DNA of 64,000 nucleotides from Planctomycetia bacterium (GCA_005799495.1 SYGP01000006.1:1-64000); one strand, 5' to 3'; numbered from the stretch's first letter, positions 5,069-45,554 are shown. Translations and numbers: made by a program. The notes: a model not told the origin generated them from the sequence alone.

Positions 5069-6334
5069 ATGAGTCTGCGCCGCCGAAGAAGGTCCATGCA
5101 CCACGCCGAGGCGCACGCCACCGGCGGAACGGTGCGGCGTCCGCAGTTGCAGGACCCGCTTGTCCCGCAGGGCGAGCCAGAGATGCTGACCACGCCCGAG
5201 GCCCTCGAAGAATTCCTCGACCACGCGCGTGCCGCCGGCTCGTTCGCCTACGACACGGAGTTCATCGGCGAGGAAACATTCTTGCCGCGCATCTGCCTCG
5301 TGCAACTCTCGACGACCGAGAGGATTGCCCTGGTGGACCCACTCGAGCTGCCCGAGGATGCGATGCGCAGCCTCTGGAAGGCGGTGTGCGATCCGGCGCT
5401 GCAGACCATCGTGCATGCGGGTGGACAGGATGTGCTGATCGCACAGCGCGGGGCTGACGCGAGTGCAGAGGCCGTCATCGACACGCAGATCGCAGCGGGC
5501 ATGACCGGCATGCCCTGGCCGCTCAGCCTCGCCAATCTGGTCGAGTCCCTCGCGGGTGTTCGGCTGCCCAAGGGGCACACCTTCACCGAATGGGACAAGC
5601 GTCCGCTCAGCAAGGCGCAGATCGGCTACGCGGCAGACGATGTGCGATTCCTGCCGTTCGTGTGGGCGAAGCAGCGCGAGCGGCTCGATGCGCTCGGTCG
5701 CACGGCGTGGGTGATTGAAGAGACTCGCGAAGCAACGCGCCAAAGCCAAGGCTTCGATCCCCAGTCGCAGGTTCGACGCGCATCGCGCGGGTTGACCTTG
5801 CGCCCTCGCGAGATGACCGTGCTGCGAGAACTCGTGCTGATCCGTCAAGATGTGGCGCAGGCGCTCAACGTGCCGCCGCGCACGGCGCTGCCCGACGGTT
5901 GCATGCTCGATCTCGCCCGCATTGCAACGCCCAGCGCCGATCGCATCGCGCAGGTTCGCGGCATTCCCCGTTCGACGCTGCAACACTTCGCGCGAAACAT
6001 CGAGGACACGATGATCCGGGCGCGCGCCCTGCCTGCCGAGGAAGACGCGCAGTGGACCCCGCGACCCGAAAACGCCCAACAGCGCACGCAGCTCGATGCG
6101 CTCTGGTCGATCGTGTCGATGCGTTCGATCGCGCTCGGGATCGCAGCGCCTCTGGTGACCTCGCGAGCGGAGCTTGCTGGATGGTTCCTCTCCGATCCCA
6201 GCGAGCGCCCGCCTCTTTTTCCCGCAGGTTCGTGGCGACACGAGTCCATCGGTGTGTGGCTCGAGTCCTTCCTTCGCGGGGAGTGCCACCTGAATCTCCG
6301 ATGGCAAGATGGAGGGCCAACCGCCCATGGCTGA
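5069..6334 (+). CDS. rnd: Ribonuclease D-like 3'-5' exonuclease
   Basis: 421-residue DEDDy exonuclease of the RNase D type, acting in 3' maturation of tRNA and other small RNAs. The motifs are in order: exo I FAYDTEFIGEET (acidic D and E), exo II VHAGGQDVLIA, and exo III KAQIGYAADDVRFL with the Tyr and Asp of DEDDy. HRDC-like helical segments follow, including LRELVLIRQDVAQALNVPP and DRIAQVRGIPRSTLQ. The first 35 residues are weakly conserved, so a later start is possible. A TAGCCT hexamer 10 bases upstream suggests ATG 5069. The stop overlaps the start of the next gene. Confidence 0.9.
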   Translation: MSLRRRRRSMHHAEAHATGGTVRRPQLQDPLVPQGEPEMLTTPEALEEFLDHARAAGSFAYDTEFIGEETFLPRICLVQLSTTERIALVDPLELPEDAMRSLWKAVCDPALQTIVHAGGQDVLIAQRGADASAEAVIDTQIAAGMTGMPWPLSLANLVESLAGVRLPKGHTFTEWDKRPLSKAQIGYAADDVRFLPFVWAKQRERLDALGRTAWVIEETREATRQSQGFDPQSQVRRASRGLTLRPREMTVLRELVLIRQDVAQALNVPPRTALPDGCMLDLARIATPSADRIAQVRGIPRSTLQHFARNIEDTMIRARALPAEEDAQWTPRPENAQQRTQLDALWSIVSMRSIALGIAAPLVTSRAELAGWFLSDPSERPPLFPAGSWRHESIGVWLESFLRGECHLNLRWQDGGPTAHG

Positions 6335-7607
6335 TCACGCGCACTGGGATCCGCATCCGCCCCTTTCACACGGCATCGGCGACCATGATGTACCGCGTGA
6401 CTCCGATCATCTCGCTGGCAAGCATGTCGCGCTGCTCGTGACGGGTGGCATTGCGGCGATGAAGAGCCCAATGGTCGCGCGCGCGCTGCGCCGTCATGGC
6501 GCGCAGGTGACTGCCATCGCCTCGAGCGAGGGGCTCCGCTATGTCACCGAGGACACGCTCGCCTGGAGCACCAACCGTCCAGTGGTGACGCAGCTCAGTC
6601 CGCGCGCGGAGCACCTGTCGGGCAGTGAGCCGTTCGATGCGTACCTCGTCGCGCCGGCGACCTACAACACGATCAACAAGATGGCTTGCGGAATCGCCGA
6701 TGGAACGGTCACTGCCACGCTCGCGTCTGCACTCGGCCGACTCGAGCGCGGCGGATGCGCAGTCCTGCTCTGCCCCACGATGCACGGCTCGATGCACACG
6801 CAGATCCTGTCGGACAGTCTCGTTCGGCTGCAGAAGCTCGGCGTGCAGGTGATCGCTCCACGCGACGACTACGGCAAGCACAACCTTCCAGACGAGGAAC
6901 CGATCGTGCGGGCGGTCTGTCGCGCACTCTCGCGTTCACCGCTTCGGTCACTGCGCGTGTTGGTCACGGGCGGTCCCGTTCCAGCGCCGCTGGACTCGGT
7001 CCGCCGCATCAGCAGCCGGTTCACGGGCGCGCTTGGCATCGCCATCGCATCGGAGCTGGACCTCTGCGGGTGCGAGGTCGATCTTGTGCTCGGCAGCGGC
7101 AGTCTCGCCGCGCCCGCATGGATCCGTCACCACATCGCGCGCGATGTCCCGCAGTACCGCTCCCAGGTCTTGGAGGCGCTCGAACGCCCCGCACATGCTG
7201 CGGTGCTTTCTGCCGCCGTCGCGGACTTCGCACCGCGTGAAGTACGCGAGGGGAAGGTGCCGAGCAGTGCAGGACCGTGGAGTGTGGAACTGCAGCCAAC
7301 CGAGAAGGTCATCGATGCGGTCCATCGCCTTCACCCGTCGCTGCCCATCGTCGGCTTCAAGTACGAGGAGCAATGTGAACTCGAAGCGCTGCTCCAGGTG
7401 GCGCGTGCGCGCGCGTCCGTTCACGGCGCATGCGTGGCAAACCGCGGCGAGGACACGCCCGACAGCGGGGTTCAGTCGGCGTGGTTCGCTGTCGCCGGCC
7501 ATGATCCGATTCGCATCACCGGGAAGTCGCAGATCGCTCGCGCCATCCGCGAGCATCTCGAGCGCGTCAGCGAGTCCCATCCGATGGCGACCAGCGCGCG
7601 GTCCTGA
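6327..7607 (+). CDS. CoaBC-like flavoprotein / phosphopantothenoylcysteine ligase-decarboxylase
   Basis: About 426 residues with two domains in CoaBC order. The N-terminal flavoprotein domain has [15 protein letters not shown] and [17 protein letters not shown]. The C-terminal ligase-like domain has [35 protein letters not shown] and VGFKYEE. CoaBC normally makes 4'-phosphopantetheine from phosphopantothenate and cysteine. Two canonical features differ: the PxMNxxMW substrate motif reads CPTMHGSMH (no Asn), and the ligase's KIKK stretch is absent. Activity may therefore differ. ATG 6309 is possible, but GGAGG at 6311-6315 precedes ATG 6327, which overlaps the ribonuclease D stop by 8 bases. 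Confidence 0.75.
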
Positions 7608-7619
7608 ATCGAACGCGGC

Positions 7620-7625
7620 TATCCT
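7620..7625 (+). promoter_or_regulatory. Candidate -10 element of sugar isomerase unit
   Basis: TATCCT ending 8 bases before ATG 7634, in the 26-base gap after the CoaBC-like gene. It suggests that the isomerase, oxidoreductase and phosphoesterase genes have their own promoter. Confidence 0.4.
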
Positions 7626-7633
7626 GCGACTTG

Positions 7634-8710
7634 ATGCCGCGCACACTCACACTGTTCACGGGCCAATGGGCTGACCTGCCGCTGGAACGGCTCGCGCCCA
7701 TGGCGCAGTCGATGGGATACGACGGTCTTGAACTCGCGTGCTGGGGGGATCACTTCGATGTCCTGCAGGCAGCGGAGTCGACGGCATACTGCGAGAAACA
7801 CTGGCAACTGCTGGGTGACCATGGATTGACCTGCGAGGCGATCTCGAACCACCTCGTCGGGCAGGCAGTGTGCGATCGGATCGATGAGCGGCACCAGAGC
7901 ATCCTGCCGCCCGAAATCTGGGGCGACGGCGAACCCGAGGCCGTCCGCCAGCGCGCCGCGGAGCGCATGCGACGAACTGCCGCCGCTGCGCGCGCGTTCT
8001 TCTCCGTCAAGCCGGCCTCGCTCGGGACGGAGCATCGTGTCGTCGTGAATGGGTTCACGGGTTCGTCCATCTGGCACATGGCGTATGCGTTCCCATCGAC
8101 CACGCAGGAGATGTGGCAGCGCGGCTACGACGATTTCGCGCGCCGATGGATGCCGATCCTGGACGCGTTCGATGCTGCCGATGTGGACTTCGCCCTCGAG
8201 GTGCATCCGACGGAGATCGCATTCGACACGGCGACTGCGCAGCGCGCCTTGGATGCCGTGCATGGACACAAGCGGTTCGGCTTCAACTTCGACCCTTCGC
8301 ACTTCGCGTACCAAGGGGTCGATCCCATCGGCTTCATTCGCCGCCTCGGCGCTCGCATCTTCCACACGCACATCAAGGATGTCTGGTGGAACCGCGGCGA
8401 CGGAACGGTCGGCGTCTTCGGCGGCAATACATCGTTCGGCGACCCACGGCGTTCCTGGGATTTCCGTTCTCCTGGGCGCGGCGACATTCGCTTCGAGGAC
8501 ATCATCGTTGCACTGAATGATGTCGGCTACCGCGGCCCGCTCTCGGTGGAATGGGAAGATGCCCGCATGGACCGCGAGCACGGTGCAACCGAAGCAGCAG
8601 CATTCGTGCGGCGACTCGACTTCCGCCCCAACGGGACGGATCTCGACAGCACCTTCGCTCGTGCGCGGCGCCAGGCTGATCCCTCCGCACATCCGCGAGC
8701 CCGCGCATGA
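7634..8710 (+). CDS. Sugar phosphate isomerase/epimerase (xylose isomerase-like TIM barrel)
   Basis: 358-residue protein of the AP-endonuclease-2/xylose-isomerase-like barrel family. Metal-ligand positions typical of these isomerases are visible: Glu in [13 protein letters not shown], Asp/His in [12 protein letters not shown], His in [10 protein letters not shown], Glu in [11 protein letters not shown]. The family isomerises or epimerises keto-sugars or inositol derivatives; the substrate here cannot be told. A TTG codon lies directly before ATG 7634, which is preferred. The stop overlaps the next start as ATGA (8707-8710), so it is translated with the oxidoreductase, a common pairing in sugar or cyclitol oxidation. 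Confidence 0.88.
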
Positions 8711-9939
8711 CGACTGCCGCCTCCGCACGCAAACTGCGCATGGGCATGGTGGGCGGCGGGCGCGGGGCATTCATCGGCGCAGTCCATCGCAGCGCGGCGG
8801 CGCTCGACGGGCGGATCGAACTGGTCTGCGGCGCGTTCAGTTCAGATCCCGCGTGTGCGCTCGCCTCTGGAAGGGACCTGTTCCTTCCTCCCGCGCGGTG
8901 CTACCAGTCGTTCGCCGAGATGCTGTCCGCGGAATCTGCGCTGCCCGTCGGCGAGCGCATGGATTTCCTGTCGATCGTCACGCCGAACCATCTGCATGCG
9001 CCGATGGCGCTGGCCGCCGTGCAGGCTGGATTCCCTGTGATCTGCGACAAGCCGCTGGCCGTTTCGCTTCGTGAGGCAGTCGAACTCCGCGATGCCGTTC
9101 GCGCAGCCGCAGTGCCCTTCGCGCTCACGCACAACTACACCGGCCACCCGCTCGTGAAGGAGGCGCGCGCCATCGTGCGCAGCGGACGCCTCGGCGCAAT
9201 TCGCAAGGTGGTGGTCGAGTATTCCCAGGGCTGGCTCGCGACTTGCCTCGAAGCACAGGGCCAACGCCAGGCATCGTGGCGTACCGATCCGATGCGCGCT
9301 GGTCTCGCGGGATGCATCGGCGACATCGGAACGCACGCGGAGAGTCTTGCTGAGTATGTGACGGGGCTTCGCATCGAGGAACTCGCCGCCGATCTCACTT
9401 CGTTCGTCGATGGTCGAAGGCTCGACGACGACGCGAATGTGCTGCTGCGATTCGAGGGCGGTGCCAAGGGTGCCTTGATCGCGTCGCAGATCGCCGTGGG
9501 CGAAGAGAACAACTTGAGTCTGCGTGTGTGGGGCAGCAGCGGCGGCATCGAGTGGCATCAGCAGGAACCCAACTCCCTCTGGCTGAAGAGTGCTGATCAG
9601 CCTGCGCACCTGCTTCGCACGGGCATGGCGGGTCTGTCCCCTGCTGCGGCTGCGGCGACTCGACTTCCCGCGGGGCACCCTGAGGGTTACCTCGAGGCTT
9701 TCGCGAACATCTATCGCGCGTTTGCGGTGCAGGTCGCGGCGCATGTGGGCGGCGTGTCGCCTCCACGCGATGCGCTCGACTGTCCCACCATCGATGATGG
9801 CGTTCGCGGCATGGCCTTCATCGAAGCGGTCGTGGCGAGTTCGCGCGCAAACGGTGCCTGGACGCCACTCGCTTCGGACAGGCCCCCGAGCGATGCGGCG
9901 AGTACGCCTGCCGCCCGTGCAGTGCATGGACCGCGATGA
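8707..9939 (+). CDS. Gfo/Idh/MocA-family oxidoreductase
   Basis: 410-residue NAD(P)-dependent sugar or cyclitol dehydrogenase. The N-terminal Rossmann fold starts at [19 protein letters not shown] (GxGxxG-like). The conserved EKP motif appears as [10 protein letters not shown], after [16 protein letters not shown]. The C-terminal domain includes [16 protein letters not shown] with the usual conserved His, and [14 protein letters not shown]. The final 40 residues are Ala/Pro-rich. Coupled by ATGA overlaps to the isomerase before it and the phosphoesterase after it; the pair probably acts in one sugar pathway. Confidence 0.9.
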
Positions 9940-10568
9940 GCGCACGCATTTGGATCACGGCGGATACGCACTTCACCCACGCCGAGGCGATCGGCCTCTT
10001 TGCGCGGCCCGTGGCCGCCGGCGATGTGTCCGGGATGGACGACCTGCTCATCGAACGCATCAATGACCGCGTCGGCGCGCGCGATCGCCTGATTCACTTG
10101 GGCGACTTCCTCGGTCCGCGTGATTGGAAAGGCGAAGGGCGCGAACAAACATCCGCCGACGCGCACGCGCTTCGCGAACGCATCCGCTGCAAGCATGTCG
10201 AGCTTGTTCGCGGCAACCACGACCCTGGCCCGAAGCGCCTGCGCGGACTCTTCGAGGAAGTGCATGACATTCTGTCGATCAAGGGTTGGAGCGGCGGACC
10301 CGAGCGCATCGTCTGCTGCCACTATCCGCTGCGATCTTGGCAGGGGATCTTTCACGGTGCGTTCCATCTGTACGGCCATGCGCATGGCGCGATGTCGCAG
10401 CACGGACGCAGCTGCGATGTGGGCGTCGACTGCTGGGATTACGGACCCGTCCTTCTCGATGAGATCCTCAGCGGGCTTGCGCAGGTCGCGCCACCCACGC
10501 TGGCGAGAGTCGCGCCGCGAGAACAGCCGATGCGAACGCCCCGCAGTGGACTCGTTGAGCGCCGCTAG
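9936..10568 (+). CDS. Metallophosphoesterase
   Basis: 210-residue calcineurin-like phosphoesterase. Metal-binding blocks in order: ITADTHFTH (D, H), HLGDFLGPRDW (GD), VRGNHDPGPKR (GNHD), CCHYPLRSW (H) and LYGHAHGAMS (GHxH). This order and spacing match small bacterial phosphoesterases; the substrate is not predictable. The start overlaps the oxidoreductase stop as ATGA (9936-9939). The TAG stop also forms the first bases of the TAGCAT hexamer before the next gene. Confidence 0.9.
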   Translation: MSARIWITADTHFTHAEAIGLFARPVAAGDVSGMDDLLIERINDRVGARDRLIHLGDFLGPRDWKGEGREQTSADAHALRERIRCKHVELVRGNHDPGPKRLRGLFEEVHDILSIKGWSGGPERIVCCHYPLRSWQGIFHGAFHLYGHAHGAMSQHGRSCDVGVDCWDYGPVLLDEILSGLAQVAPPTLARVAPREQPMRTPRSGLVERR

Positions 10569-10571
10569 CAT
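10566..10571 (+). promoter_or_regulatory. Candidate -10 element of small lipoprotein gene
   Basis: TAGCAT, 8 bases before ATG 10580. Its TAG is also the stop codon of the phosphoesterase gene. No clear -35 box. Confidence 0.4.
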
Positions 10572-10579
10572 CTTGCACC

Positions 10580-10885
10580 ATGATGGATTGGCTTTCCACC
10601 TCCGCGATCGCGCGCCACCGACGAATCCTCCCGTGTGTGGTGCTGATCGCCCTCGCCTCGGCGACGGGCTGCGTGTCGGATGACCCCATGAACACGACAG
10701 GCGGATCGTCGCGGCTTTCGCAGGCTGCGAACAACGCATCGCAGTACACAGGTTCGTGGGATTTGCAGACGACGAACATGGATGAACGGTGGAGCGAAGA
10801 TCCCACCGTCATGGAACCGGATTATCCCTACGCGGGAATGCAGCCGGGATTCGGCTCGTCGGCGTTCACCCAGTACGGGTCTTGA
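10580..10885 (+). CDS. Small predicted lipoprotein, function unknown
   Basis: 101 residues. A basic N-terminus (ARHRR), a hydrophobic stretch (ILPCVVLIALASATGC) and a lipobox with Cys at about 31 predict export and lipid attachment. The mature part is about 70 residues, rich in Ser, Thr, Tyr and Pro, with no domain I recognise. The start is ATG 10580 or the adjacent ATG 10583. It lies 11 bases after the phosphoesterase gene and converges on another lipoprotein gene. Confidence 0.65.
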   Translation: MMDWLSTSAIARHRRILPCVVLIALASATGCVSDDPMNTTGGSSRLSQAANNASQYTGSWDLQTTNMDERWSEDPTVMEPDYPYAGMQPGFGSSAFTQYGS

Positions 10886-40659: not shown

Positions 40660-41262
40660 TCAGAACCCAACCGAGTTCTTCGTGCCCTGCTTCGTCATGT
40701 CGACGGTCTTGGTCCACGCTTCGACACCCGATCGAATGTTGGTCAGCGTCAAGCGGAATGTGTAGGTGGTCTGCTGGGTGTTGCCGGCCTGACGCTTGAC
40801 CTGCGTGATCTTGCCAGAGAGCGAGAAGTCGGGAGAGGGCATCCCATCGACGGCGTTCCCTTGGCGGAACGCCTGCGCACGGAGTTGCTCCTGCGCGGTC
40901 TTGTCCTCCGCATTCGCGCCGAAGGTGGTGATCACGGTCGCCTGACCGCTGTTCACGAGCTGCTCACGCATCCGGTAGAGCAACTCGCCGACATCGAACT
41001 GCGAACTGGTGTCATTGACCACCTTGTCGATCACGAGTTGCGCTGGCTTCGCCTGTGCAGTCTTGAGAATGCCGGTCTCGATGAGCGACTCCAGCATGCC
41101 CGAGGATGCCTTGAGGATGTCCTGCATGTCCACATCGCCGACGCTGACGATCGACTCGGGGCTTCCCGTCTCCACATACTTGGCCGGCGAACCACAGCCC
41201 ACGGCAACGAAGATGCTGAGAGAGGCGAGAGACGCAACTGAACGAATCGCGGGAAATCTCAT
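40660..41262 (-). CDS. LpoB-like penicillin-binding-protein activator lipoprotein
   Basis: 200 residues. Signal (ASLASLSIFVAVGC) with lipobox Cys at about 23. The domain shows SVGDVDMQDILKASSGMLESL, QLVIDKVVNDTSSQFDVGELLYRMREQL and SLSGKITQVKRQAGNTQQTTYTFRLTLT (fragments), matching the LpoB/YcfM family that activates PBP1b from the outer membrane. GGAG 6 bases before ATG 41262 is a plausible ribosome site, and TAGCAT lies 31 bases upstream. Its position after a YcfL-like gene repeats the E. coli ycfL-lpoB order. Confidence 0.85.
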   Translation of the reverse strand: MRFPAIRSVASLASLSIFVAVGCGSPAKYVETGSPESIVSVGDVDMQDILKASSGMLESLIETGILKTAQAKPAQLVIDKVVNDTSSQFDVGELLYRMREQLVNSGQATVITTFGANAEDKTAQEQLRAQAFRQGNAVDGMPSPDFSLSGKITQVKRQAGNTQQTTYTFRLTLTNIRSGVEAWTKTVDMTKQGTKNSVGF

Positions 41263-41293
41263 GGGTCACTCCAGATGGGGTATCGGCGGGCGA

Positions 41294-41299
41294 ATGCTA
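41294..41299 (-). promoter_or_regulatory. Candidate -10 element of lpoB-like gene
   Basis: TAGCAT on the minus strand, 31 bases before ATG 41262. Here a real leader with a GGAG ribosome site would exist, unlike most genes in the window. Confidence 0.33.
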
Positions 41300-41331
41300 C
41301 GGATGGACAGCACAGTTGGGATGAAGTCAAA

Positions 41332-41751
41332 TCACTGATCGGCGCGCCGAACCTGCAGGCGAAAGTCCGTCGCTGCCTCGCTTGGCGCGATCGCACGAAT
41401 GGTGGTGGAGCCGCCCGAGGGAACATTGCTGGTCTTCCACACGGAAACCTGCGATGGGATCACGCTTCCGTTGGCATCCACCCAGTCAAAGCGATAGGAA
41501 AAACCTCGGTAGCTGAAGCCGTTGTTGATCACATCGACCTGCGCCTCGAGCGGACCGCCCTTGCTTGGGAACATGCGTACCTCTCCAGCACTCAAGAAGA
41601 TCTGCGTGAGGGCATCGTTCACCTGCGTCTTGGTTGGAACGGCCGTTGCCGACGGCGTGGTGCGGGTGTAGGTCGTGTTGACCGAACCACATGCATTCAG
41701 TACGGCGGTCGCCGCAAACAAGGCGAATCGAAGTGCTCGGCGCATGCTCAT
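41332..41751 (-). CDS. YcfL-like (DUF1425) lipoprotein
   Basis: 139 residues. Signal ALRFALFAATAVLNAC with lipobox Cys. The mature protein has VDVINNGFSYRGFSYRFDWVD and QVSVWKTSNVPSGGSTTIRAIAPSEAATDFRL (fragments), matching the beta-sandwich YcfL family. ATG 41751 overlaps the preceding gene's stop as ATGA. In E. coli ycfL lies next to lpoB, as here. Confidence 0.8.
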   Translation of the reverse strand: MSMRRALRFALFAATAVLNACGSVNTTYTRTTPSATAVPTKTQVNDALTQIFLSAGEVRMFPSKGGPLEAQVDVINNGFSYRGFSYRFDWVDANGSVIPSQVSVWKTSNVPSGGSTTIRAIAPSEAATDFRLQVRRADQ

Positions 41752-43343
41752 GGCTCCTGTGCAGTCTGTTCGGGCGCCGCTTCGTGCGACACCTCGGGAT
41801 TCGTGATGGTACGCGGCGCAGCGATCACCTGCGGTGGCGGAGGAATGAACTTCGCCAACGGCACATGCTGAACCACCGGCGGCGCGCCGGCGGATGGCAT
41901 CGTGACAAAAACGATGTTCGGAGACTTGGGCTGTACGGGGACGCTGCACAGCGGCGCACCGCCTGACCGCCGCAGTTCGATCTGCCCCGTCTCTGGCGTT
42001 GCCACACGAAGAAGATCGATGCGCTTTGGCATCTCGCCCCAGCAGCGGAGATCGGCGGCGGTCGACGCCGCTTGATATGCGATTCCCGCAATCTGCACGA
42101 GGAGGCCGACAGTGCTGTCGCTCTGCGCGGCCGCGGTGCTCGCTGCATAGGTTGCGGCAGCCTTCGTCGCCGAACTGATGATCTCCTGCGTCACGATCGT
42201 GGGCAGGCGCGAATCGAACTCCGCTCGGACCATCGCATCCATATCGGCCAGCGTGACCGACTGGAACGTCGTGCCCATCCCCTGCGCATCGGCACTGGCC
42301 GCCTCGATGGCACCGAGGGCGTCATCTCGCACCTTGAGTACGGGGAATGCAGCGGACACATAGTTGACAGGACCAACGGGGATCGGAATGTCCAGACGGA
42401 ACTCGTCGTAGAAGGGTGCCAACCCGGAGAGAAAGAACACCCATGTGACCGGCATCGTGCCTGCAGCTGGGTCCTCATCGATCAGCGCAATGTCGAGCGC
42501 CGCGGGGGCGAATCCAGGAACCATCTCCTCCACGGCACGCAGGTCGGCGCGTGCATTCTGGCGATCACCCAGCTCGGAGGATGTCGACAGCAGAAAGACA
42601 GCTCGCAGATAACTCGTGAAGGGGTTTGGCAGCACGGCCATTCCATTCTGCTCTGGCGGATTCCCCTGACGCGATCGCACCTGCGCGAGGGCACCCGAAG
42701 CCGCCGATTCGCTCCACCCCTGCTTTCGCCACGCCGCATCGGCACTCGCCTGCTGCGTGGCGACCTCCTCCTGAAAGCGACTCTTCGCATCCATCTGAAA
42801 GTCGCGCGCACGGTTCAACTTCAGTCGTGCCGAATCGAAGTCGCCTCGCTCAAGGTCGTTCATGCTGTCGAATGTGCACACCATGATGCGCTCGGGCGGC
42901 GTCGCACGGTAGATACGAACGGTCTGGTTGACGACCGTCGTCGCGACCGCCTCGGTCACCTTCGCCTCCGCCTTTTCGTCGAGGTATGGCTTGATCTCGT
43001 CGAACGCGCGCCGGTACCAAAGATCGCTGCGCTCCCACGACCCGGCAATCTGCGCCGTGCGCGCTGCAGCCATGAAGTACACGAGTCGATCCTGCTCATC
43101 CTTCTCGGCTTTGGCCGCTGCCTCGCATGCGACCGCCTCCGCCTTGGAGTAATCCCCCGCGATGAGCGCAGCATCAATCTGCTTGGTCGTACGCCGAAGC
43201 TCCTGCTGGCAGCCGAAGGGCGCGCCAGCACACAGGAGTAACGCGCACACCAACGCAGCAGAAGACGCGCCGGCACCCGACGCGCGACCGCAGGAGCCCG
43301 CTGACCCTGCGGCGGACTTCAAGGACCAAGAAGTTGCCACCAA
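41748..43343 (-). CDS. COG3014-like lipoprotein
   Basis: About 530 residues. A hydrophobic segment AALVCALLLCAGAPFGC ends in a lipobox Cys. The body is helical with TPR-like parts (IAGDYSKAEAVACEAAAKAEKD, SWERSDLWYRRAFDEIKPYL), then GMAVLPNPFTSYLRAVFLLSTS and MDAMVRAEFDSRLPTIVTQEI, resembling COG3014 proteins found beside YcfL and LpoB in gammaproteobacteria. Start is TTG 43343 or GTG 43340; a run of six G 8-11 bases upstream could act as the ribosome site. It overlaps the csgG-like gene end by ~25 bases. Confidence 0.7.
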   Translation of the reverse strand: MVATSWSLKSAAGSAGSCGRASGAGASSAALVCALLLCAGAPFGCQQELRRTTKQIDAALIAGDYSKAEAVACEAAAKAEKDEQDRLVYFMAAARTAQIAGSWERSDLWYRRAFDEIKPYLDEKAEAKVTEAVATTVVNQTVRIYRATPPERIMVCTFDSMNDLERGDFDSARLKLNRARDFQMDAKSRFQEEVATQQASADAAWRKQGWSESAASGALAQVRSRQGNPPEQNGMAVLPNPFTSYLRAVFLLSTSSELGDRQNARADLRAVEEMVPGFAPAALDIALIDEDPAAGTMPVTWVFFLSGLAPFYDEFRLDIPIPVGPVNYVSAAFPVLKVRDDALGAIEAASADAQGMGTTFQSVTLADMDAMVRAEFDSRLPTIVTQEIISSATKAAATYAASTAAAQSDSTVGLLVQIAGIAYQAASTAADLRCWGEMPKRIDLLRVATPETGQIELRRSGGAPLCSVPVQPKSPNIVFVTMPSAGAPPVVQHVPLAKFIPPPPQVIAAPRTITNPEVSHEAAPEQTAQEP

Positions 43344-45541
43344 ATCGATTGCCCCCCAAGGTTGAGATTCTGCACATTGCTCGTATCAAGCCTGATGTTG
43401 CTGTTCTTCAGGAAGTCCGCCACTGCCTTCACCTTGATGATCTCCGCCTCGCGCAACACGGCGCCGTTCTTCAGATCGTTGAAGAAGACTGCGTTGCGTT
43501 CCCAGTTGGCACGACCCTCGGGCGAGAACTGCATGGGTATCGACAGCGCAAGTCCCGCCTTCACATTCATCATGCGTTCGACGGGTTCCAATCCAGGGCG
43601 CTCGAGCCGAAGCCTGTGCAGCCCAGGCCGAACTGGGATGGTGCCGGGCGTCTGGCCGACCACGATGCCATCGACCATCACCGACACATTCATCGGCTCA
43701 AGCTTGTACAGGTTTGGAACGATGGTGTAGTCGCCGTTCGCGCCGCGCACGGCATCCGGCACACTCAAGTCAGCAAGGACGGCGGTGATCTGCACATCCA
43801 CTTCCGCGGCAGCCGCGCTCGCCTGCCGAACGCCGTTCGAGGCCACCGCCGCCGACAGAGCAGCGGCAATCTGGCTCGCCGCGTCCATCAGCAGCGGATT
43901 GATCGTGTCGAGGGTGGTAGCGACCTCCGGCGTATCTCGGACCGCGAGCCGCGCAGGTGCCGTGCCCGACGCAATGCTGCCGCCGTTTGCGCCGTCGAGA
44001 ATCTGGTAAGTGGCGCGCAGGTTCCACTCCCGAACGAGCGTCTTGGTCTTGATGGTCGGATCGTCGAACGCCCGCTCCGTCTTGTCGTAGGTGGTGATCG
44101 CCGCCGTCAGGAGGTAGTCCGCGCCCATGAGCGCGGCGAGTGCCGTCGCCGATGCACGGTCCGACTGGAGTCGATCGAAGAGCTGCGACTCGGGCGGCGC
44201 CGTACCGGCGTTCGGTCCCGATGCCGCGAATCGGTTGACCGCATTCATGACATCCTCGCGGCGGATCAGTTCAAACTGGCTCGTCGGAAGCGCGGCGGCG
44301 ATGTCATCCTCAAACACGCTCACCTTGTCCTCCGGAACACAAATCGGGCGCTGCTTCACGAAGATGGCGACCTTCCGAGGCGCGACCGACGCGGCTCCAT
44401 TCCCCACAGTGTTTGCTCCCGTGCCAGCGGGAGTTGCACGCGCAGCTTGCGACTCGACTCCGTCGGGCGGAAGCACGCGACCGGTCGGCGGCGCACCCGA
44501 CGCAGGAGCGCCTGCCCCACTGGCGCTGCCCGTGGCACGACCATTCGGATCAACGCCCGCCGGCAAACCCTGTGAACGCGCGCGCATGATCGAACCGCGG
44601 TCGATGCCGAGATCCTCGATCGCCTGCGCGGTCGAGAATCGGCTGCCGGCATCCGTGACCCGAGCCCATCCCACATGCACCTCCTCCGCTCCAAGCGACT
44701 GTCCCGTCTCGGGATCGACCATCTCGGCGCCTGCTGCGAGCACCTCCCAGATCTGACCTGTCTCGACGCCCGACTCCTTCGTCCGGTTGAAGGTGATCTG
44801 TCCCATCGTGTAGCCGACCACACGCGCCGGCATCAGGCTCTCGGAGATCGCGCGCGAAGCGGTGGTGGCGAAGAGTGCCGTGACCTTGCCAATGAGCGCG
44901 TTCGTCTTTCGCCCCGTCTGCTCAACGCCACCGAGGATTTCATCCAGCGCCGCCTCGTTCAGTGCCACGGAAGTCGCGCGCAGGAGCACGCCCGATGAAG
45001 TATCGAAGATGCGCACGGACCCCTGCAACTGGATGGTGCGCCGCTCCGCATTCGAGTCGCCAAACTGCCCTTTCAGCACGGTGCGTTCAACCACATCCTG
45101 GAAGTTCTCGATCGACACCGTGGCGAGGTAGCGCGCACCTGCCAGCTGCAGTTGCTTGGCAGTCTGCGGATCGAGCGTGTCGACATTGCCGCTCGCCGAG
45201 AGGCTCTGCTCGCGAAGCACGGAGGGAAGATCTGCGCGCGCCACGACATCGAAGCGTCCACCCGCGCTGAGTGCGTTGACAAGCTGCGGGTCCGTGCCCT
45301 GCGCGATCTGCTCGAGAACATTGACTTGTCCATCTGCAGTTGCCTGCGTCAGCACTGCGCGGGTGGCGGAAATGTCACGCACCGCGATGCGCGGCTTGCC
45401 CGAAGCGGCTGCATCCTGCCCCCACGCGTTCGTCGGACCAATGCACACGGCCCACACGGTCATCAGCGCGACAGTCCCGGCAGCCACGAGAGTGTGAACG
45501 CCCACGGATCGCCGCGAGCAACGGCGTACGAATGTCTTCAT
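43319..45541 (-). CDS. CsgG-like periplasmic/outer-membrane protein with PEGA domain
   Basis: 740 residues with a signal (VHTLVAAGTVALMTVWAVCIGPTNAWGQ, in part). Two CsgG-like regions: RIAVRDISATRAVLTQ...YLATVSIENFQDVVER and KVAIFVKQRP...GADYLLTAAITTYDK. A PEGA carbohydrate-binding-like domain follows (MNVSVMVDGIVVGQTPGTIP, about 615-690). CsgG proper is an outer-membrane secretion pore for curli; here no curli genes are seen and there is no clear lipobox. ATG 45541 has TACTCT 7 bases upstream. First gene of the envelope cluster with COG3014-, YcfL- and LpoB-like genes. Confidence 0.75.
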   Translation of the reverse strand: MKTFVRRCSRRSVGVHTLVAAGTVALMTVWAVCIGPTNAWGQDAAASGKPRIAVRDISATRAVLTQATADGQVNVLEQIAQGTDPQLVNALSAGGRFDVVARADLPSVLREQSLSASGNVDTLDPQTAKQLQLAGARYLATVSIENFQDVVERTVLKGQFGDSNAERRTIQLQGSVRIFDTSSGVLLRATSVALNEAALDEILGGVEQTGRKTNALIGKVTALFATTASRAISESLMPARVVGYTMGQITFNRTKESGVETGQIWEVLAAGAEMVDPETGQSLGAEEVHVGWARVTDAGSRFSTAQAIEDLGIDRGSIMRARSQGLPAGVDPNGRATGSASGAGAPASGAPPTGRVLPPDGVESQAARATPAGTGANTVGNGAASVAPRKVAIFVKQRPICVPEDKVSVFEDDIAAALPTSQFELIRREDVMNAVNRFAASGPNAGTAPPESQLFDRLQSDRASATALAALMGADYLLTAAITTYDKTERAFDDPTIKTKTLVREWNLRATYQILDGANGGSIASGTAPARLAVRDTPEVATTLDTINPLLMDAASQIAAALSAAVASNGVRQASAAAAEVDVQITAVLADLSVPDAVRGANGDYTIVPNLYKLEPMNVSVMVDGIVVGQTPGTIPVRPGLHRLRLERPGLEPVERMMNVKAGLALSIPMQFSPEGRANWERNAVFFNDLKNGAVLREAEIIKVKAVADFLKNSNIRLDTSNVQNLNLGGQSIWWQLLGP

Positions 45542-45548
45542 GCTTCAC

Positions 45549-45554
45549 AGAGTA
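45549..45554 (-). promoter_or_regulatory. Candidate -10 element of csgG-like operon
   Basis: TACTCT on the minus strand, 7 bases before ATG 45541. A TTGCAG 15 bases further upstream may be a -35 box. Confidence 0.42.

Follow-up and report, generated by a model that had tools for sequence, protein, structure and literature searches.

A conserved TPR-YcfL-LpoB gene cluster headed by a double-CsgG/PEGA protein in a planctomycete genome with no detected class A penicillin-binding protein

Four genes lie in succession on the minus strand at 40660-45541 of the window, the whole 64,000-nt stretch of DNA analysed here, and encode a double-CsgG/PEGA protein, a TPR protein of the COG3014 type, a YcfL (DUF1425) protein and an LpoB-family protein. 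The source genome is a Phycisphaerales-like MAG of 2.36 Mb (97.8% complete) with one CsgG locus and one LpoB genome-wide; its named relatives are labelled Phycisphaerales, Phycisphaerae or Planctomycetota. The genes, and the domains and motifs within them, are as follows.

43319-45541, minus strand: CsgG-PEGA gene at the head of the cluster (ORF, 740 aa; Pfam CsgG and PEGA)
44822-45415, minus strand: first CsgG-like domain, residues 43-240 (Pfam CsgG at 43-193; matched by a separate anammox gene)
44567-44824, minus strand: beta domain, residues 240-325, from AF2 strands; possibly FlgT_C/TsaP-like (suggestive only)
44387-44539, minus strand: disordered linker rich in Ala/Gly/Pro/Ser, residues 335-385 (pLDDT <50; anammox split point)
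43820-44377, minus strand: second CsgG-like domain, residues 389-574 (second Pfam stretch; matched by the anammox 435-aa protein)
43526-43696, minus strand: PEGA domain, residues 616-672 (PF08308, 35.2 bits)
41748-43343, minus strand: TPR lipoprotein, COG3014-type (ORF, 531 aa; without a Pfam family)
42039-42056, minus strand: ADLRxW signature motif, TPR residues 430-435 (from 24 homologues)
41332-41751, minus strand: YcfL/DUF1425 lipoprotein (ORF, 139 aa; PF07233)
40660-41262, minus strand: LpoB-family lipoprotein (ORF, 200 aa; PF13036)
40663-40692, minus strand: C-terminal tail of LpoB, K191-F200, KQGTKNSVGF (K..[WFY] pattern)

About 25 nt are shared by the CsgG-PEGA and TPR genes and 4 nt (ATGA) by the TPR and YcfL genes, and a gap of 69 nt separates YcfL from LpoB. 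The preliminary description of this DNA, made from the sequence alone, had named a four-gene envelope cluster in which the first three genes overlap; all four ORFs and both overlaps are present, and the gene order is kept in relatives. On the same strand, folC lies upstream and leuS downstream, flanks that are shared by the two closest relatives only. Promoter and terminator scans of the cluster gave no signal above shuffles. The same description took all four proteins to be exported. The CsgG-PEGA protein begins with a signal peptide but has no lipobox cysteine in the window sequence (a lipobox-like motif occurs in 4 of 95 homologues), and the lipoboxes of the TPR and LpoB proteins (APFGC and AVGC) are non-canonical. 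C45 is invariant in the TPR alignment and C23 of LpoB is kept in 94% of 98 sequences.

The CsgG-PEGA protein matched Pfam CsgG in two stretches (57.2 bits; cut-off 20.8), and both the CsgG and PEGA families were matched in all 17 aligned homologues. Its two CsgG-like domains aligned with each other in hhalign (E 3.5e-5, probability 72%). The beta domain that follows the first of them may be FlgT_C/TsaP-like, every such match being sub-threshold: FlgT_C in the homologue at locus L079 (E 0.0024) and TsaP (E 0.52), beside a non-significant match to a LysM protein (E 0.16). Azospirillum and anammox proteins aligned over this region at E 1e-8. At locus L079 (3687-6159), one of the two CsgG genes carries Ig-like Glucodextran_B/Big domains, not PEGA.

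The whole-chain model of the CsgG-PEGA protein is weak (pLDDT 68, pTM 0.37). In Foldseek its top match was Vibrio FlgT (E 2e-13, TM-score on the target about 0.31), followed, for the same low-pTM model, by CsgG, HpaA, GNA1162, PelC and LpoB; in the homologues, matches to Pfam FlgT_M and FlgT_C stayed below threshold. As hhalign of LpoB against the CsgG domains was weak (probability 7-47%), the idea that the cluster holds three copies of one fold comes from Foldseek only.

The COG3014 label of the TPR protein was taken from the preliminary description, and its class here is based on homology to the Azospirillum and Aeromonas TPR proteins adjoining ycfL-lpoB (E 1.7e-36 and 1.8e-12, respectively, both small-database E-values). 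An independent tblastn search with the TPR homologue of locus L037 also gave matches to the proteobacterial protein. The AF2 model (pLDDT 83, pTM 0.82) runs from N-terminal helical repeats through a beta domain and a helical hairpin to a C-terminal beta domain, and comparison with PDB structures gave weak TPR matches only. In the ADLRxW motif, D431 and R433 are invariant, and L432 and W435 are kept in at least 90% of the 24 homologues. Insertion of the helical hairpin into the membrane was considered and rejected, its median hydropathy being 1.26 vs 1.27 in the rest of the protein.

YcfL matched PF07233 with 58.2 bits (cut-off 28.3) and resembles the solved proteins 4gio and 3o0l (E about 1e-4); its armadillo matches were to designed repeats and were taken as chance. 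LpoB matched PF13036 with 76 bits (cut-off 22.3) and E. coli LpoB in hhalign at E 4e-11 (probability 97%), and scored 71 bits on the NCBIfam equivalog TIGR02722, under its cut-off of 110.55. Sequence searches of the PDB with the LpoB and TPR proteins returned no convincing relatives. The K..[WFY] tail is found in 66 of 87 cluster LpoBs and in the Aeromonas and Azospirillum proteins. In one comparison, E. coli LpoB is without the tail and the E. coli region without the TPR gene.

Conservation of the cluster was followed at several depths. The TPR protein is present in 30 of 61 relatives, and all four genes recur in the same order, with differing flanks, in about 18 relatives at the family level. 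Of 244 Planctomycetota genomes, 146 have the TPR protein by a profile search and 144 have LpoB; 131 have both, with an odds ratio of 57 and a Fisher p of 2e-35 that is inflated by shared ancestry. The linkage fraction is not inflated in the same way: the two genes lie within 4 kb of each other in 94 of the 96 genomes with listed positions that were compared. Pairwise protein distances of TPR and LpoB are correlated (Spearman 0.82).

In 40 phylum-wide loci, drawn from the better matches, LpoB stood next to the TPR gene in 39, whereas YcfL was there in 25 and an unambiguous CsgG gene in 5; hence the core is the TPR-LpoB pair, with CsgG as an optional member. A further scan of named genomes and two plasmid-collection records, seeded by one peptide pattern and thus favouring near relatives, gave 82 loci, 78 with LpoB and 65 with a CsgG-like gene. 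They span Phycisphaerales, anammox Brocadiaceae, Verrucomicrobiota, an Azospirillum plasmid and Aeromonas, and most keep the four-gene order. Among 94 non-redundant loci no extra conserved subunit was found, the commonest neighbour being an ABC ATPase at 6 loci. The recurrence of the order with different flanks, its presence at most of the 82 loci and the linkage in 94 of 96 genomes place the conservation of the cluster far beyond chance; the genes are not unlinked in relatives, the outcome that would have told against the preliminary description.

Two of these loci have features of their own. On plasmid p1 of Azospirillum sp. TSH100 (5782-10785), a CsgG/FlgT-like gene comes after the TPR, YcfL, LpoB and DUF6844 genes, and glycosyltransferase genes lie nearby. 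The Aeromonas caviae record NZ_AP026896.1 (4.94 Mb) is filed as a plasmid and looks like a chromosome.

The TPR gene is preceded by a pair of CsgG-type genes in anammox bacteria and in some Verrucomicrobiota. One anammox-type locus, L063, of the family to which the Brocadiaceae loci belong, was used for comparison: its 300-aa protein corresponds to residues 18-320 of the window protein (30% identity, E 1.5e-45) and its 435-aa PEGA protein to residues 389-734 (E 1e-40). The split point coincides with the disordered linker, and the order of the two genes is reversed relative to the halves of the window protein. Judged by these alignments, the window protein is a Rosetta-stone fusion of the two anammox-type genes, and the two parts would therefore usually work together.

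LpoB is the textbook activator of PBP1B. The contact is made through the UB2H domain of the E. coli enzyme (PMC6220978). Class A PBPs are missing in PVC bacteria, which build walls without them (PMC8406291). In the source genome, with its 97.8% completeness, there was no match to GT51 (PF00912); its two class-B PBPs and two SEDS proteins are the sole peptidoglycan polymerase and transpeptidase families found. GT51 occurs in 22 of the 244 Planctomycetota genomes, with no association with LpoB (p 0.82) or TPR (p 0.26), and is missing from 119 of the 131 that hold the TPR-LpoB pair, as well as from 18 of 20 further cluster-bearing genomes that include Verrucomicrobiota and anammox bacteria. UB2H, a UvrB-domain homologue, also had no match in the source genome. 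The apparent UB2H matches in 68 Planctomycetota genomes were not counted as PBPs, since almost every one falls within a long ORF, in most cases of about 1100 aa, which fits Mfd. Because GT51 is absent from the source genome and from most genomes with the pair, the LpoB-like protein appears from gene content to be without a PBP1 target here, and the tie to a PBP1-type enzyme put forward in the preliminary description falls away.

We read the four genes as one module, and hold with middling confidence that it forms an outer-membrane-tethered, periplasm-facing scaffold or ring. The TPR/COG3014, YcfL and LpoB lipoproteins would presumably be anchored in the outer membrane, and some lineages would add the exported double-CsgG/FlgT-like protein with its PEGA domain. 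The assembly would hold or regulate an envelope machine; PBP1B could not be its client here, and SEDS/class-B PBP complexes would be the leading candidates on the cell-wall side. The analysis establishes the genes, their linkage and co-inheritance and the fold families to which they belong, and that the source genome is without a detected class A PBP. Complex formation is inferred from the linkage, the Rosetta-stone fusion and the ring-forming fold relatives (CsgG and FlgT are ring-formers), and outer-membrane location and client are likewise proposed; conserved operons need not encode a stable complex. The preliminary description had spoken of an undescribed outer-membrane complex headed by the CsgG/PEGA protein. 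The conserved cluster stands, and it is unreported in the open-access literature searched, most subscription journals lying outside that coverage; the CsgG head proved optional, and the complex is plausible.

A specific form of the scaffold reading has the LpoB, TPR and YcfL proteins regulating a SEDS-class B PBP pair (RodA-PBP2 or FtsW-FtsI) from the outer membrane, in place of Lpo-PBP1 control. That these are the only such families in the source genome, and that PVC bacteria build walls without class A enzymes (PMC8406291), speaks for such a role. The cluster, however, is not linked in the genome to SEDS or PBP genes, nothing ties it directly to SEDS or class-B PBP genes, and about 40% of the sampled Planctomycetota are without the module; we regard this form as rather improbable.

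Less probable still is polymer export of the PelBC kind, in which lipoproteins of the LpoB/CsgG fold would form a ring round the TPR protein and lead a polysaccharide through the periplasm. PelC assembles as a dodecamer that surrounds a pore protein with TPRs (PMC12141448), and the architecture of a TPR protein with an LpoB/PelC-fold ring, as well as the glycosyltransferase genes near the Azospirillum copy, would suit this role; against it, the cluster encodes no beta-barrel and no polymer synthase is a conserved neighbour, glycosyltransferases being seen in Azospirillum only.

The Pfam and Foldseek matches of the CsgG-like protein to CsgG suggest a secretion channel of the curli type, but such a pore is decidedly unlikely, because the protein is without a lipid anchor and its equivalent of the second membrane hairpin is short (27 residues vs 38 in CsgG). 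That hairpin is not seen in the model, within its limited confidence, and the TM1 equivalent is the more highly charged (0.31 vs 0.16 in CsgG). In addition, the best structural match is FlgT and not CsgG, and the CsgG gene is missing from many clusters. At the locus itself, none of the curli genes CsgA/B/E/F adjoins the cluster.

The rank of FlgT among the structural matches could point to an accessory of the flagellar H ring, which is very hard to maintain given that the cluster and true FlgI are not associated (odds ratio 1.1, p 0.79) and that the source genome has a weak FlgI-like match only. In several Planctomycetota genomes, proteins of about 700 aa that match PF02119 weakly, at E about 1e-14 to 1e-27, are encoded beside true FlgI, and the single match in the source genome (E 1.2e-21) is of this weak type. 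Activation of a class A synthase by the LpoB-like protein as in E. coli, with the other genes assisting, is favoured by the PF13036 match and the gammaproteobacterial ycfL-lpoB neighbourhood, but the GT51, UB2H and TIGR02722 results above leave it barely tenable, refuted unless the missing 2% or so of the source genome hides a class A PBP.

Returning to the scaffold or ring, the cluster probably does an older, non-PBP1 job at the outer membrane, since most of the bacteria that bear it are without the enzyme that LpoB activates. On this reading, LpoB would have been recruited to the activation of PBP1B only later, in gammaproteobacteria. A tentative extension, which we consider possible though rather doubtful, is that LpoB began as a subunit of an ancient outer-membrane TPR-YcfL-LpoB(-CsgG) scaffold that does not depend on class A PBPs and is widespread in the two phyla Planctomycetota and Verrucomicrobiota; in E. 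coli, PBP1B activation would be secondary, taken on after LpoB had lost its COG3014 partner and a C-terminal docking tail. An LpoB family locked to lipoprotein partners in genomes without class A PBPs would point to a second function for the family, and the cluster provides a concrete gene set for studying envelope organisation in planctomycetes and Verrucomicrobiota. It also leads to the prediction that COG3014 and YcfL, the little-studied gammaproteobacterial neighbours of LpoB, act together with it.

The cluster shares parts with several known systems. With the Vibrio flagellar H ring it has in common FlgT as the top structural match of the CsgG-PEGA protein and possibly an FlgT_C-like domain; the window protein differs in its two CsgG-like domains and PEGA, its unrelated partners and its lack of a tie to flagella. 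The Pfam CsgG domain is shared with the curli channel, from which the window protein is set apart by the missing lipobox, the reduced TM2 hairpin and the absence of adjoining curli genes. PelBC likewise joins a TPR scaffold to a lipoprotein of related fold, whereas the window cluster is without the beta-barrel and the Pel synthesis genes.

With the LpoB-PBP1B system of E. coli the window shares an outer-membrane lipoprotein of family PF13036, in a genome without a class A PBP and with an equivalog score below the cut-off. In the window protein about 26 residues separate the lipid cysteine from the start of the PF13036 domain, vs about 52 in E. coli LpoB, for which a disordered reach of about 145 Å is described (PMC6220978). 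The gammaproteobacterial region differs from the window in having no CsgG-PEGA gene, in its hinT and thiK flanks and, in E. coli, in the presence of the PBP1B target. The adjacency of ycfL and lpoB there, often with COG3014, which the preliminary description had named, is seen in both species compared: E. coli has hinT-ycfL-lpoB-thiK, sharing ycfL-lpoB with the window and missing the COG3014 gene and the LpoB tail, and Aeromonas has a HIT-type protein gene, COG3014, ycfL, lpoB and a thiK-like gene (hinT and thiK being named there by similarity and position), with the trio adjacent and in the order of the window.
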